Assembly: GCA_944319885.1 (NCBI GenBank)
Contig: CALUFC010000015.1
Coordinates: 1 to 43,763 of the forward strand
Direction: 5' to 3'
DNA length: 43,763 nt
Origin: an uncultured Coriobacteriaceae bacterium
Lineage (GTDB): Bacteria > Actinomycetota > Coriobacteriia > Coriobacteriales > Coriobacteriaceae
The position numbers were made by a program, and so were the translations under genes. Under the pieces are notes generated by a model. The model was given only the letters and a program-made list of their open reading frames with translations. It did not search any database and was not told where the DNA came from. This document shows, piece by piece, positions 22,197 through 37,882 of the stretch. Position 1 is the first letter of the stretch. Every line of letters begins with the position of its first letter.

Positions 22197-23192
22197 CTAC
22201 TTCTTGATCCAGGAGAACATCGAGCGGATCTTCTCGCCGGTCTTCTCGATCTCGTGGTCGTTGATCTTCTCACGCTGCTCGAGGAGCCACTTGTGGCCGT
22301 TGTTGCAGTCGTCCACAAACTGCTGAGCGAACGAACCGTCCTGGATGCGAGCGAGGATCTTCTTCATGGCCTCGCGACTCTCGGCGTTGATGACCTGCGG
22401 GCCGGCGTAGTACTCGCCGTACTCGGCGGTGTTGGAGATCGAGTAGTTCATGAAGTGGATGCCGCTCTCGTACATGAGGTCGACGATCATCTTCATCTCG
22501 TGATAGCACTCGAAGTAGGCAAGCTCGGGCGGATACCCAGCCTCGGTCAGGGTCTCGAAGCCGGCCTTCACGAGCTCGACGAGGCCACCGCAGAGCACCG
22601 CCTGCTCGCCGAAGAGATCCTCCTCGGTCTCCTGCGCGAAGGTCGCCTTGATGATGCCGGAACGGGCACCGCCCACGCCCCAGCAGTAGGAAAGCGCGAT
22701 GTCCCAGGCGTTGCCGGTGGCATCCTGGTGCACGCAGGCGAGATCGGGCACACCGGAGCCCTCGGTGTACTGGCGGCGCACGATGTGGCCGGGGCCCTTG
22801 GGCGCGCACATGATGACGTTCACATCCTCGGGGGCCTGGATGTAGCCGAAGTGGATGTTGAAGCCATGGGCGAAGGCGAGGGTGTTGCCGGGCTTGAGAT
22901 GCGCCTTGATGTGCTCCTCGTAGACCTTGGGCTGGGTCTCGTCGGGGGTGAGGATCATGATGAGGTCGGCTTCCTCAGCCGCGGTGTCCATGTCGCACAC
23001 CTTGAGACCGGCCTCCTCGGCCTTCGCCCACGAGCTGGAACCCTCGCGCAGGCCAACACGCACATCGCAGCCCGAATCGAGCAGATTGAGCGCGTGCGCA
23101 TGGCCCTGCGAGCCATAGCCGATGATGGCGACCTTCATGCCCTGGATAACCTCGGGATTGCAGTCGCTCTCGTAGTAAATCGTCACTGCCAT
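22197..23192 (-). CDS. ilvC: ketol-acid reductoisomerase
   Basis: Second common step of isoleucine and valine synthesis (isomerisation and NADPH reduction of acetohydroxyacids). 331 residues, the short class I form. The Rossmann motif [16 protein letters not shown], cofactor loop [12 protein letters not shown] and metal-binding [19 protein letters not shown] are complete. The Ser-rich cofactor loop fits NADPH preference. The ATG at 23192 follows AAGGAG. It is the last gene of ilvD-B-N-C but lies 233 bases after ilvN, across a large structured element and a possible own promoter (palindrome CCGCGCATGCGCGG at 23242-23255 next to TATAAG), so it may be partly independently regulated. Confidence 0.98.
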
Positions 23193-23425: not shown

Positions 23426-23911
23426 TTACGCGTCTCGCGCGCCGCGGCTCATCGCGATCTTGCCGGTGCGCGTGAGCTGGCGAATGCCGTAGCTGCGGAA
23501 GAGGTCTTCCATCGCATCGAGCTTGCTCGCCGTGCCCGTTGCCTCGACCGTCAGCGAATTCTTGCCCACGTCGACGATGTTCGCGCGGAAGATGTTGGCG
23601 ATCTCGATGATCTCGTGGCGCCGATCGGGCGGAGCAACCACCTTGAACAGCACGAGCTCGCGCTCGATGGCGTCTTCCTCGGTGAGGTCGGAGATCTTGT
23701 AAACCGAGACGAGCTTATGCAGCTGCTTGGTGAGCTGCTCGTAGGCAACCTCGTCGGCATTCACGATGATGGTCATGCGGCTCATGGTCACATCTTCGGT
23801 GGGCGCCACCGTGAGCGAATCGATGTTGAAGCCGCGACGGCTGATGAGGCCGGTCACACGGGAGAGCACGCCGGGCTTGTTCTCGACGAGGATGGAGAGG
23901 ATGTACTTCAT
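23426..23911 (-). CDS. ilvN: acetolactate synthase regulatory subunit
   Basis: Small subunit that binds valine and activates the catalytic subunit. 161 residues: an N-terminal ACT domain (MKYILSILVENKPGVLSRVT, then GLISRRGFNIDSL) and the C-terminal ALS_ss domain (ELVLFKVVAPPDRRHEIIEI). The frame stays open upstream, but the ATG at 23911 is one base past the ilvB stop and follows GGGAGG, which decides the start. Translation is therefore coupled to ilvB and the two subunits are made together. Confidence 0.97.
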   Translation of the reverse strand: MKYILSILVENKPGVLSRVTGLISRRGFNIDSLTVAPTEDVTMSRMTIIVNADEVAYEQLTKQLHKLVSVYKISDLTEEDAIERELVLFKVVAPPDRRHEIIEIANIFRANIVDVGKNSLTVEATGTASKLDAMEDLFRSYGIRQLTRTGKIAMSRGARDA

Positions 23912-23912
23912 C

Positions 23913-26048
23913 TCACTCGCCTCCCTTCGGAGCCTGGGCATCCAAGGCGGCATCGGCCGCAGCGGGGCGCTGCTCGGCACCTGCCATGGCATCGGACACG
24001 CGCGTGGCGCCCGAGGTGCGGAATGCGCCCTCGGTCTGCTCGTTCAGGGGCAGCGGCTCGGCCACGGTGCCCGCGGTCTCGCCGGCGGGACTCATGCCCT
24101 TCTCGGTCACGCGCACGCCGCCGAGCGTCACGTCGATCGCGCCGATGATGTCGTCGATGGCGGCGCCGGGAGCGACCATGGGGTAGACGGTCTGCGCCGT
24201 GGGGATGATCACGTCGAGCAGGTACGGACGGTCGCTCGCGAGCATGCGGTCGAGCGCGCCGTCGATCTGGTCGGGATGGTTGATGCGCTCGGCACCCCAG
24301 CCATACGCCTCGGCGAGCTTCACGAAATCGGGGTTCGCCGTGAACTCGGTGCAGCTATAGCGCTCGTGATAGAACAGGCGCTGCCACTGGTGCACCATGC
24401 CCAGCGCGTTGTTGTCGATGAGCAGCACCTTCACCGCGACGCCGTTGCCAATGGCAGTGGCCATCTCCTGGATGTTCATCTGCAGCGAACCGTCGCCGGC
24501 GATGCAAACCACCTGGGCGCCGGGACGCCCGATCTTGGCGCCGATGGCTGCGGGGAAACCGAAACCCATGGTACCGAGACCGCCGGAGGAGATGAACGTC
24601 CGCGACTCCTCACGATGGATATGCTGATGCGCCCACATCTGGTGCTGGCCCACCTCGGTGGTGACCACGCTCGCATGCGGATCAAGCTTGGCCGAAAGCG
24701 CCTCGAGCACCTGTTCGGGGGCGATGCGATCGGGATAGTCGGCAAAATCCTCGGTATAGAACGGCCAGCGCTCGCGCCATGCGAAGACGGTCTCGACCCA
24801 CTCCGCATCCTGCGGCGTAGCGCCCACACGGGCGAGGCGCTCGTTGATGGCCGCGACGACGTTGCGGGCATCGCCCACGATGGGAACCTGCGGATCGCGC
24901 ACCTTGCCGATCTCGGCAGGATCGATGTCGATGTGGATGACCTTGGCATGCGGCGCGAACTCGGAAAGCTTGCCGGTCACGCGGTCGGAGAAGCGCGCGC
25001 CCACCGCGATAATGAGGTCGCACTCCGTCATGGCCATGTTGGCATATTTGGAACCATGCATGCCCACCGGCCCCAGGTTCAAGGGGTTGGAGCACGGCAC
25101 GGCCGCCTTGCCGATGAGCGTGGTGACCACGGGAATCTGCATCTTCTCGGCGAGCTCGACCACCTCGTTGCAGGCATGGCTCGTCACGCAGCCGCCGCCG
25201 GCGATGATCACCGGGCGCTTGGCGGAGCGGATGAGCTCGACCGCTTGCTTGACCTGCTTGGCATTGCCGCGATACGTGGGGCGATAGCTGGGGATATCAA
25301 CCTGATCGGGATAATGGAAGACCATCTGCTCGCCGGCAAGGTCGCTCGGCACATCGATCAGCACGGGGCCGGGACGCCCAGTGGAGGCGATGTAGAACGC
25401 CTCGCGGAACGTACGCGTGAGGTCGTCGTTGCTCTGCAGCAGGTAACTATGCTTCACGACGGGCATCGTGATGCCCACGATATCGGCCTCCTGGAAGGCG
25501 TCGGTGCCGATAACGCCGCGCGTCACCTGGCCCGAGACCACCACAAGCGGCACCGAGTCCATGTATGCCGTGGCGATGCCCGTCACGGTATTGGTGGCAC
25601 CGGGTCCCGAGGTCACAAAGACCACGCCCACCTTGCCCGTGGCGCGCGCATACCCGTCGGCCTCATGGACCGCAGCCTGCTCGTGGCGGGCGAGGATGTG
25701 GTGGATCTTGGTGGAGTCGTAAAGCGCGTCGTAGAGCTTGATGGCCTGACCGCCGGGGTAGCCGAAGACGGTGTCGACGCCCTCGGCCTCGAGCGAGGCG
25801 ATGATCGCGGCGGCGCCGGTCATCTCCTTGCCCTCCTTCTCGGTATGGCTACCGGGCCCGAACGGCTTGCCCGAGATCGCAAGCTCCTTCAGCGCCAAGC
25901 GCTCCTCGCGCGTGGTGCCGTCGCCTTTGCCGTCCTGCGGGCGAACGGCGCTCGCGCACATGTGCTGGCGAATGTCATCCGACATATCCGGGGTGCGCGG
26001 GCTGCCGGCGATGGGCGCCGCCTGCGCGGTCTGCTGGGAATCGGTCAT
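23913..26048 (-). CDS. ilvB: acetolactate synthase catalytic subunit, with terminal extensions
   Basis: ThDP enzyme for the first common step of branched-chain amino-acid synthesis. 711 residues from the ATG at 26048, whose ATGA overlaps the ilvD stop; usual length is about 560-600. The extra length is a polar N-terminus of 75 residues and an Ala-rich C-terminal tail of roughly 50. The catalytic core is standard: [11 protein letters not shown], the ThDP Glu in [38 protein letters not shown], and the metal site [12 protein letters not shown]. An internal ATG at 25823, right before GVDTVFG and preceded by AAGGAGGGCAAGGAG, is an equally good start giving a normal N-terminus. Confidence 0.96.
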
Positions 26049-27709
26049 GAGAGATACGCCCCCTTATCGGCACTCGTGACGAGCTTCGCATAGCGCGAGA
26101 GCACGCCGCTGGTGTACTTCGGCGCAGGCGGCTGCCACGCGGCGCGGCGACGGGCAAGCTCGTCGTCCGGTACGCGCACGTTCAACGCCCCCGCCTCGAT
26201 ATCGATATCGATGATGTCGCCCTCTTCCACAAGCGCGATGGGGCCGCCCGCAGCCGCCTCGGGCGAGACGTGGCCGATGCACGGGCCCTTCGAGGCACCG
26301 GAGAAGCGCCCGTCGGTGATGAGCGCCACGGACTTGTCGAGCCCCATGCCGCAAATGGCCGAGGTGGGCGTGAGCATCTCGCGCATACCCGGACCGCCCG
26401 CCGGACCCTCGTAGCGAATCACCACGACATCGCCGGGATTGATCTTGCCGCCGAAGATGGCCTCGCAGGCCTCCTCCTCGCTGTTGAACACGCGTGCCGG
26501 GCCGGAATGCGTGTACATCTCGGGCGCGCAGGCAGAACGCTTGACCACGCCGCAGCTGGGTGCGAGGTTGCCCTGCATGACCTTGAGCCCGCCAATGGGC
26601 GAATAGGCGTTATCGAGCGTTCGAACGATCTCGCCGTCTGCCGGCGGGCACGCCGCCACCCACTCGTCAACCGTGCCGTGGCAGGTGAGCGCACCGCCGT
26701 GCAGGAGCCCGCCGCGCCCCAACTCGCCGATGATCGCGGAGATGCCGCCCACGGCGTTGAGGTCCTCGATGTGAAGCGGCCCCGCCGGTGCGATGCGCAC
26801 GATGTTGGGGGTCTTGGCGCTCACGCGGTCCCAATCCTCCATGGTAACCGGGCACCCAGCCGCCTGCGCGATGGCGGTGAGGTGCAGCATCGTGTTGGTG
26901 GATCCACCGAAGGCCATATCGAGCACCATGCCGTTGTAAACGGCGTCGGCCGAGAGGATGTCGAGCGCGCAGGTGCCCTCGCGCACGAGGTCCATCACCT
27001 TCATGCCCGTCTGCTTCGCAAGGCGGATGCGCTCGGAGAACACGGCGGGCACCGTACCGTTGCCGGGAAGCGCGAGGCCGAGCGCCTCGGCAAGGCAGCA
27101 GATGGAGTTCGCGGTGAACATGCCCGAGCAGCTGCCGCAGGTGGGGCAGGCGGTGTTCTCGAGCCATGCGCACTCTTCCGGCGTCATGGTACCGGCGGTA
27201 ACCTGGCCCACGGCGTCGAAGAGCGTGTTGAGATCGGTCTGGTGCCCGCACTTGTCGTGACCCGCGAGCATGGGGCCGCCCGAAACGAGCATCGTGGGAA
27301 TATTCAAGCGCGCCGCGGCAATAAGCATGCCGGGCACGATCTTGTCGCAGGAGGGGATGAGCACCATCGCATCGAACTGGTGCCCCTGGATGGCGCACTC
27401 AACGGAGTCGGCGATGACCTCGCGCGATACCAGGCTGTAGTGCATGCCCTCGTGGTTCATGGCGATGCCGTCGCACACGCCGATGGTGTTGATCTGCAGG
27501 GGGGTGCCGCCCGCCATGCGCACGCCGGCCTTTACGGCATCGGCGATCTGCTGGAGGTGCAGATGTCCGGGAATGACCTCGTTCTGAGCCGAAACCACCG
27601 CTACAAGCGGCCGCTCGAGTTCTTCGTCGGTGAGGCCATCGGCCTTGAGGAGACTTCGGTGGGGCGCTCGCGCCAACCCCTTCTTCACGGCATCGCTGCG
27701 CATCTGCAT
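26045..27709 (-). CDS. ilvD: dihydroxyacid dehydratase
   Basis: Dehydrates dihydroxyacids to the 2-oxoacid precursors of isoleucine and valine. 554 residues. The iron-sulfur cysteines are in SCDKIVPGM and [16 protein letters not shown], and SDGRFSG-like [17 protein letters not shown] near the C-terminus is intact. The frame is open upstream, but protein homology starts at [13 protein letters not shown] chose the ATG at 27709 with AGCGAGG upstream, and the ATG at 27703 is possible. It is the first gene of ilvD-B-N-C, and its stop overlaps the ilvB start. Its ribosome-binding site is buried in an alternative hairpin of the leader, consistent with T-box control. Confidence 0.97.
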
Positions 27710-27710
27710 G

Positions 27711-27960
27711 TAGAACCTCGCTTCCCAAACAGGTACCTCGGTACTCCAACAAGCGAGGAACAGGCGCTCTCGATGCCCGTAACGGGGGCTTACGGCGCGG
27801 CATACAAGCATCCTTTCCGTCGCGAGGATCGCTCACGCGTGAGGGTGCGTTCAGCCGGGCAGCTCGAGGGTATGTTCCCGACCGTACGCCGCGGGTTCTC
27901 ACGCTCCCCCGCTCGCTGTGGCACGCACGTCCGGTACTCGCCCTGTCATCGCATTTGCTG
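27711..27960 (-). promoter_or_regulatory. T-box riboswitch candidate, translational type, upstream of ilvD
   Basis: Minus-strand leader. Stem I has GCGATGACAGGG and CCCTCGAGC (kink-turn ends), AGTA at 27938-27935, and a helix of 11 pairs with one mismatch (27934-27923 with 27889-27878). Its distal part AGCGAGC...GCGTGAGAACCC matches the T-box AG-bulge and loop. The specifier side is GAACATACCC (27877-27868). At the 3' end CCTCGCTT (27758-27751) can pair with AAGCGAGG (27723-27716), which is the ilvD ribosome-binding site. Alternatively its CCTCG pairs with CGAGG (27740-27736), enclosing TTGGAGTACC, the likely tRNA-acceptor bulge. No terminator follows, so control would be at translation. A search with the Rfam T-box model would settle it. 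Confidence 0.72.
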
Positions 27961-28076
27961 AGTTCGTTTATTGTCCGCCCATGCTGGCGCGCATGCCCGG
28001 GCGCTCGGAAACGAAACGGTCTGGTAACAGAATTCATCGGTGAGCGGTACGTCATCCCCCGGGGGCAAAAACTTCG

Positions 28077-37809: not shown

Positions 37810-37882
37810 TGGGCGATGAGGGATTCGAACCCCCAGCCTTGTGCGTGTAAAGCACCTGCGCTAACCGTTGCGCCAATCGCCC
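37810..37882 (-). tRNA. tRNA-Val (anticodon TAC)
   Basis: 73 bases on the minus strand. The acceptor arms GGGCGAT and ATCGCCC pair fully. The D arm is GCGC...GCGC. The anticodon loop TTTACAC has TAC at 37849-37847. The T arm GGGGG-TTCGAAT-CCCTC has one wobble. The discriminator base is A and the CCA end is not encoded. A 27-43 mismatch (G-A) is present at the base of the anticodon stem. Confidence 0.95.

Follow-up and report, generated by a model that had tools for sequence, protein, structure and literature searches.

The window, a stretch of 43,763 nucleotides from an uncultured Coriobacteriaceae bacterium, carries on its minus strand the genes ilvD, ilvB, ilvN and ilvC, in the order proposed by the initial annotation and confirmed by NCBIfam matches (Table 1). 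They are preceded by a leader that spans from approximately position 27966 down to the ilvD start codon at 27709; ilvA lies upstream of this leader, past a divergent MurE-like gene. A scan for sigma-70 promoters returned no match, and a GACAAT-like -10 element at 27975-27970 was spotted by eye only. The encoded IlvD is 98% identical to that of the closest relative, another uncultured Coriobacteriaceae bacterium (G003), and approximately 90% identical to those of Collinsella and Enorma.

Table 1 Coordinates of the ilv genes and of the leader elements within the window
Feature	Position	Strand	Evidence
ilvD, first operon gene; dihydroxy-acid dehydratase of 554 aa	26045..27709	-	NCBIfam TIGR00110, 745 bits
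Open frame with ilvB, acetolactate synthase large subunit; family match from residue 76	23913..26048	-	NCBIfam TIGR00118, 799 bits
Open frame with ilvN, acetolactate synthase small subunit	23426..23992	-	NCBIfam TIGR00119
ilvC, ketol-acid reductoisomerase	22197..23192	-	NCBIfam TIGR00465
P1 5' strand ACTCAGCAAATGCGA, overlapping the k-turn strand GCGATGA (27952-27946)	27949..27963	-	Duplex search, 72/72; self-versus-swapped test
Stem I	27862..27952	-	RF00230 alignment; compensatory changes in family alignment; both T-loops conserved in both lineages
Stem I k-turn, GCGATGA/GAGC	27952-27946 (GCGATGA strand)	-	
Stem I lower helix, AGGG/CCCT		-	
Stem I loop E, AGTA with GAA	27938-27935 with 27877-27875	-	
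Stem I AG bulge, AGCGA	27917-27913	-	
Stem I distal T-loop, TGAGA	27901-27897	-	
Specifier loop, GAACATA	27871..27877	-	One base shorter than same-genome ileS loop GAAGATCA
Stem II, with S-turn-like GAAC (27852-27849) and GTA (27805-27803)	27793..27861	-	RF00230 alignment; family compensatory changes; conservation
Stem IIA/B pseudoknot region with F-box-like CCGTTA	27775..27795	-	Kept in family alignment; pseudoknot pairing by eye
Candidate antisequestrator hairpin, CGAG (27772-27769)/CTCG (27757-27754)	27754..27772	-	Candidate only
Anti-SD, CCTCGCTT	27758-27751	-	CCTCGCATTTC in relatives; self-versus-swapped test
P1 3' strand TCGCTTGTTGGAGT, containing TGGA	27743..27756	-	Duplex search; self-versus-swapped test
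SD strand AAGCGAGG, 6 nt ahead of ilvD ATG	27716..27723	-	Sequence; relatives; self-versus-swapped test

The leader is, by its homology to the Rfam T-box covariance model, of T-box ancestry. RF00230 matches 27958-27727 of the minus strand over its full length (model positions 1-219) with E=1.3e-8 and 44.3 bits, and the alignment bears out the ordered series of Stem I motifs that had been read from the sequence beforehand. The score falls short of the Rfam gathering score of 93 bits; however, this threshold is not decisive here, since this genome's textbook T-boxes before ileS and pheS miss it as well (50.2 and 50.8 bits, respectively), and only three of 60 related genomes hold any T-box that reaches it, leaving 57 with none. 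Stem I with its motifs, Stem II and the IIA/B region, by which membership of the T-box family can be recognized, are all present. In a covariance model, R1, built from 17 leaders and spanning Stem I to IIA/B, 17 of the 41 predicted pairs show compensatory change. Insertions of ~30 to 40 nt occur in the distal Stem I loop, the end that binds the tRNA elbow, in five leaders (L074, L052, L048, L053 and L075).

R1 matches were found in 171 of 299 genomes of the order, and the element lies directly 5' of ilvD in 77 of the 80 loci fetched. The three exceptions are an ileS T-box from Atopobiaceae (L168) and two leaders that precede ilvB (L127 and L149). At L127 (positions 80-560; G219, Slackia group), the leader is followed by an apparent short ilvD stub and then by ilvB, and ilvD appears to have been deleted from this genome with the leader left in place.

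The leaders fall into two groups: a set of 72 of the same kind as the window's leader, termed type P1 (30 from Coriobacteriaceae, 33 from Atopobiaceae and nine from Slackia), and 42 of type T and others, the form seen in most Eggerthellaceae (for example Adlercreutzia, Gordonibacter and Raoultibacter) and in a small number of further leaders. Both types keep the k-turn, the AGTA/GAA pair, AGNGA- and TGNGA-like T-loops, the Stem II AGTA and the CCGTNA of IIA/B. Their 3' halves differ: a T6 tract is present in only one of the 72 type P1 leaders versus 33 of 42 in the other group, a UGGU/GGGUGGNAC element in none versus 23 of 42, and an SD reading AGCGAGR in 61 of 72 versus none. The UGGU-type element of type T usually reads GGTCCTGGTGCAG...TTTTTT, its specifier is GAA-N-GCC in 28 of 38 parseable leaders, and one ilvD leader (G045) is a complete Leu (CUC) T-box with GGGTGGTACCGCG.

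In Eggerthellaceae ilvD leaders such as L066, L133-L135, L138, L140-L146 and L151-L153, the specifier GAA-N-GCC, which presents an Ala codon, occurs together with a UGGU element, a terminator and a second pairing, that of a CTTCCTTCTG-like sequence with the ilvD SD; combined control of transcription and translation is possible there. GCC is an unexpected codon for an ilv operon; GUC (Val) is found in L154 and CUC (Leu) in L064. In Slackia (L185, L189, L197, L217 and L226), the leader is of the Collinsella type and IlvD is 79-87% identical to that of the window, closer than the ~67-70% seen for Adlercreutzia and Gordonibacter, which suggests, from these sequence comparisons, that leader and operon were acquired together by transfer.

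The stretch previously described as 'GAA plus specifier' reads GAACATACCC. The GAA is indeed present in loop E, but the specifier loop is one base below the normal length (GAAG-ATC-A in the ileS T-box of the same genome), and no codon for Ile, Leu or Val is held across relatives at this position. Type P1 loops follow the pattern GAA-x-AYN, in which x, Y and N all vary and the lower helix resumes directly afterwards (CATA in 16 leaders, GACT in 13, CATT in 11, CACT in nine, CACA in seven and AACT in four, plus rarer forms). A constant triplet, sought in both registers of the 72 loops, was not found and congeners differ, so that the codon appears free of the constraint seen in type T; no triplet that would match a tRNA for the regulated amino acid is held throughout these 72 leaders. 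Two alternative assignments were rejected. Most Coriobacteriaceae read GAACAY, which would suit a His (CAY) specifier; however, Atopobiaceae congeners swap CAC for GAC, and AAG or ACC stands in still others, which leaves no one tRNA that would suit them all. An Ile or Thr (AYN) specifier was set aside on finding ATA and ACA in two close relatives.

The discriminator that T-boxes use to read tRNA charging is also missing. The initial annotation had placed a TGGA acceptor-binding bulge within a hairpin closed by CGAGG (27740-27736), as the second of two exclusive pairings. This hairpin did not survive comparison: TGGA is TCGA in the nearest relative, G003, and absent elsewhere, and G020 has not kept the enclosing CGAGG. 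The 3' halves of the 72 type P1 leaders showed no conserved UGGN, nor an antisequestrator built around one, and a conserved T-box bulge or terminator was likewise not seen in the Coriobacteriaceae, Atopobiaceae and Slackia that make up this set. The TGGA letters fall instead within the 3' strand of a conserved long-range helix, P1 (described below), whose duplex energy in G003 is the same despite the substitution. UGGA would moreover pair with a tRNA ending in UCCA, that is, with U at position 73, whereas A73 is expected in the tRNAs for Ile, Leu and Val; the only branched-chain tRNA seen, a tRNA-Val with anticodon UAC at 37810-37882 (-), has discriminator A, the residue at which its Rfam match stops. 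Another hairpin upstream of the anti-SD, CGAG..CTCG, is weak in the window species, stronger in Atopobiaceae (CGAGGC..GCCTCG) and often foldable; since its covariation is not significant at the level of representatives (864/5000), we retain it as a candidate antisequestrator. A conventional translational T-box, with the anticodon of an uncharged tRNA at the specifier and its NCCA end at a TGGA bulge in a CGAGG antisequestrator, accords with the presence of Stem I and SD sequestration and with the TGGA and CGAGG readable in the window; nevertheless, with TCGA in G003, no conserved UGGN, an inconstant specifier and the mismatch at position 73, the version with a TGGA bulge is largely refuted at the sequence level, and we regard such a mechanism as improbable.

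Sequestration of the ilvD ribosome-binding site, as the initial annotation had proposed, is by contrast well supported. The helix between the anti-SD and the SD strand (CCTCGCTT/AAGCGAGG), expected of an OFF state, is conserved and co-varies: when each anti-SD was paired with its own or with swapped SD strands across 16 sequence types, energies were -17.9 and -15.9 kcal/mol, respectively (22/5000 permutations), and none of 2000 permutations matched when all 71 leaders tested were included. In type P1 leaders generally, the anti-SD CCTCGCATTTC pairs with an SD strand GAAAGCGAGG.

The other conserved partner of the anti-SD strand is the 5' end of the leader, which probably represents the extreme 5' end of the transcript. 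ACTCAGCAAATGCGA pairs with TCGCATTTCTC in a P1-like helix; in the window, ACTC-AGCAA-[AT]-GCGA (27963-27949) pairs with TCGC-TTGTT-[G]-GAGT (27756-27743) at -12.4 kcal/mol. When the 5' end was searched, without guidance, against the sequence that runs from IIA/B to the start codon, the equivalent site came out as best partner in 72 of 72 type P1 leaders, 39 to 122 nt before ilvD, with mean z values of -2.1, -2.5 and -2.6 for the three lineages, although P1 is bulged in the window and in G003, where single-species z is just -1.6 and -1.3. The same helix was sought in 36 type T and other leaders and not found (mean z +0.1). Across 16 sequence types, self pairs gave -13.5 versus -11.1 kcal/mol for swapped pairs (0/5000 permutations; 1/5000 in a repeat), and 14 control 18-nt segments of the same leaders gave no effect in this comparison (z between -1.3 and +2.0).

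Paired variants of the outer part of P1 include TCAG-C-AAATGCG/CGCATTT-CTGA, TGAG-C-AAATGCGA/TCGCATTT-CTCA, CGAG/CTCG, ACTCAA/TTGAGT in Slackia, the pairs TTAGG/CCTGG and GAGAA-c-TGCGA/TCGCA-a-TTCTC in two different Collinsella clades, and CTGCG/CGCAG in G143. The AAATGCG of the 5' strand is conserved within the k-turn region of type T leaders too. Because this strand is thus kept also where P1 is absent, the argument for P1 rests on the 3' strand and on co-variation. P1 may compete with base pairs of the k-turn. The covariation check proposed at the outset thus upheld Stem I, Stem II and the SD helix; it did not uphold the TGGA hairpin, the competitor being the leader 5' end.

By conservation and co-variation, the anti-SD strand can pair with either of two conserved partners but not with both at once, and closure of the predicted helix that joins the 5' end to the expression platform would exclude SD sequestration. 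Folds constrained to the OFF or the P1 state lie within ~10 kcal/mol of each other, with the favoured state differing by species (pseudoknots and ligand ignored), a behaviour that a switch would show; in the unconstrained ensemble of the window leader neither helix is dominant. The 5' end of relatives, GAG-C-AAAUGCGA, resembles the SD strand GAGAAA-GCGAGG, a likeness that points to strand competition by mimicry.

The reading we favour, with some confidence, is that of a T-box-derived translational switch in which the discriminator has been replaced by a P1/SD-mimic platform. In the OFF state, P1 would be open and the anti-SD paired with the ilvD SD strand; in the ON state, the anti-SD would pair with the leader 5' end, a P1-like helix would close around the whole aptamer and the SD would be freed. 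A ligand held by Stem I and Stem II would stabilize closed P1 and thereby switch on translation of ilvDBNC when branched-chain amino acids are scarce. A tRNA is the most likely ligand, since both the T-loops that bind the tRNA elbow and the S-turn of Stem II have been kept; charging, if it is read at all, would be read without UGGN or a fixed specifier. As two defining features, the specifier and the UGGN bulge, were looked for and not found, we do not file the leader as a full T-box; it would instead work like a P1-switched translational leader. The earlier designation as a translational T-box thus holds for the ancestry, the SD-sequestering platform and the ilv operon, but not for the standard mechanism.

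Loss of both sequence-specific tRNA readers, the specifier codon and UGGN, from a scaffold that is, with its new platform, under selection would also fit a leader that no longer responds to tRNA charging and whose scaffold senses another ligand controlling P1, such as total or deacylated tRNA of any kind recognized through the elbow, a protein or a metabolite. Against this stands the conservation of the elbow-binding T-loops and of the S-turn in Stem II, which are known to hold tRNA (PMC7583486), and we consider it rather unlikely. Taken for the three lineages together, the idea that the T-box scaffold before ilvD in Coriobacteriaceae, Atopobiaceae and Slackia lost both tRNA-reading sequences and responds to a different input, be it a protein, a metabolite or any deacylated tRNA, through a new switch in which the 5' end mimics the SD, is a tentative possibility. 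A degenerate remnant, with an SD hairpin and a P1 that persist as structural relics and regulate nothing, could account for the score below the Rfam cut-off and for the lack of a constant specifier; it is very improbable given long-term conservation and co-variation in 72 leaders from three lineages.

If the favoured reading holds, a lineage in which the discriminator is absent and the rest re-plumbed, with a classical sister at the same gene, makes the evolution of an expression platform directly traceable, and it raises the question of whether amino acid starvation can be reported by Stem I and Stem II alone. For bacteria common in the gut (Collinsella, Enorma, Olsenella and Slackia), it would also supply a probable mode of control over the synthesis of branched-chain amino acids. 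To our knowledge, taxid 1760 does not include the Coriobacteriia. That taxid is the scope of the class II search in TBDB (PMC7778990). No description of Coriobacteriia ilvD leaders was found in the literature searched, mostly papers outside subscription, and an earlier notice is possible. The 'ilvD motif' (PMC8632094) was considered as the same element and rejected; it is reported from Veillonella only and has the gene alone in common. A T-box on a biosynthetic operon had been flagged as notable, but ilv T-boxes are already reported for Bacillota (PMC12452182).

The T-boxes of the same genome provide the nearest comparison. Those of ileS (L002 1501-1791; specifier ATC, GGGTGGTAG) and pheS (L001 1501-1746; specifier TTC, AGGTGGTACCGCGG) have textbook sequences and terminators; they are classical and transcriptional, unlike the translational ileS T-boxes of other Actinobacteria, and the earlier generalization that most actinobacterial T-boxes are translational does not fit this genome. 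With UGGU and terminators retained in both, the loss of these elements is specific to the ilvD leader. What the leader has in common with class I transcriptional T-boxes (RF00230) is the IIA/B region with its F-box, Stem II and a long Stem I that includes the k-turn, loop E, the AG bulge and the distal T-loops; it differs in lacking the UGGN bulge, antiterminator and terminator, in having a specifier loop that is shorter by one base and holds no constant codon, and in the helix between 5' end and anti-SD found instead. The discriminator, whose UGGN bulge pairs with the tRNA NCCA end, is described as practically the same in all known T-boxes (PMC7583486). Translational T-boxes of Actinobacteria are known from ileS, where hairpins that sequester the SD and anti-sequestors have been described (PMC1262725), and mostly have a shortened Stem I (PMC7583486). 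With these class II ileS T-boxes, the leader shares SD sequestration as the OFF state; they have a UGGN antisequestrator and mostly a short Stem I, whereas the ilvD leader has a long Stem I, no UGGN and P1 as competitor. The ilvD T-boxes of Eggerthellaceae and Bacillota (PMC12452182) precede the same gene, and the Eggerthellaceae aptamer is homologous and at the same site; in most Eggerthellaceae the leader keeps its terminator, UGGU element and GCC specifier and is without P1. P1-switched translational riboswitches, finally, have in common with the ilvD leader a terminal P1 of which the 3' strand also belongs to the platform that sequesters the SD; compared with those that bind metabolites, the aptamer here is T-box derived and ~190 nt long, and its 5' strand mimics the SD strand.
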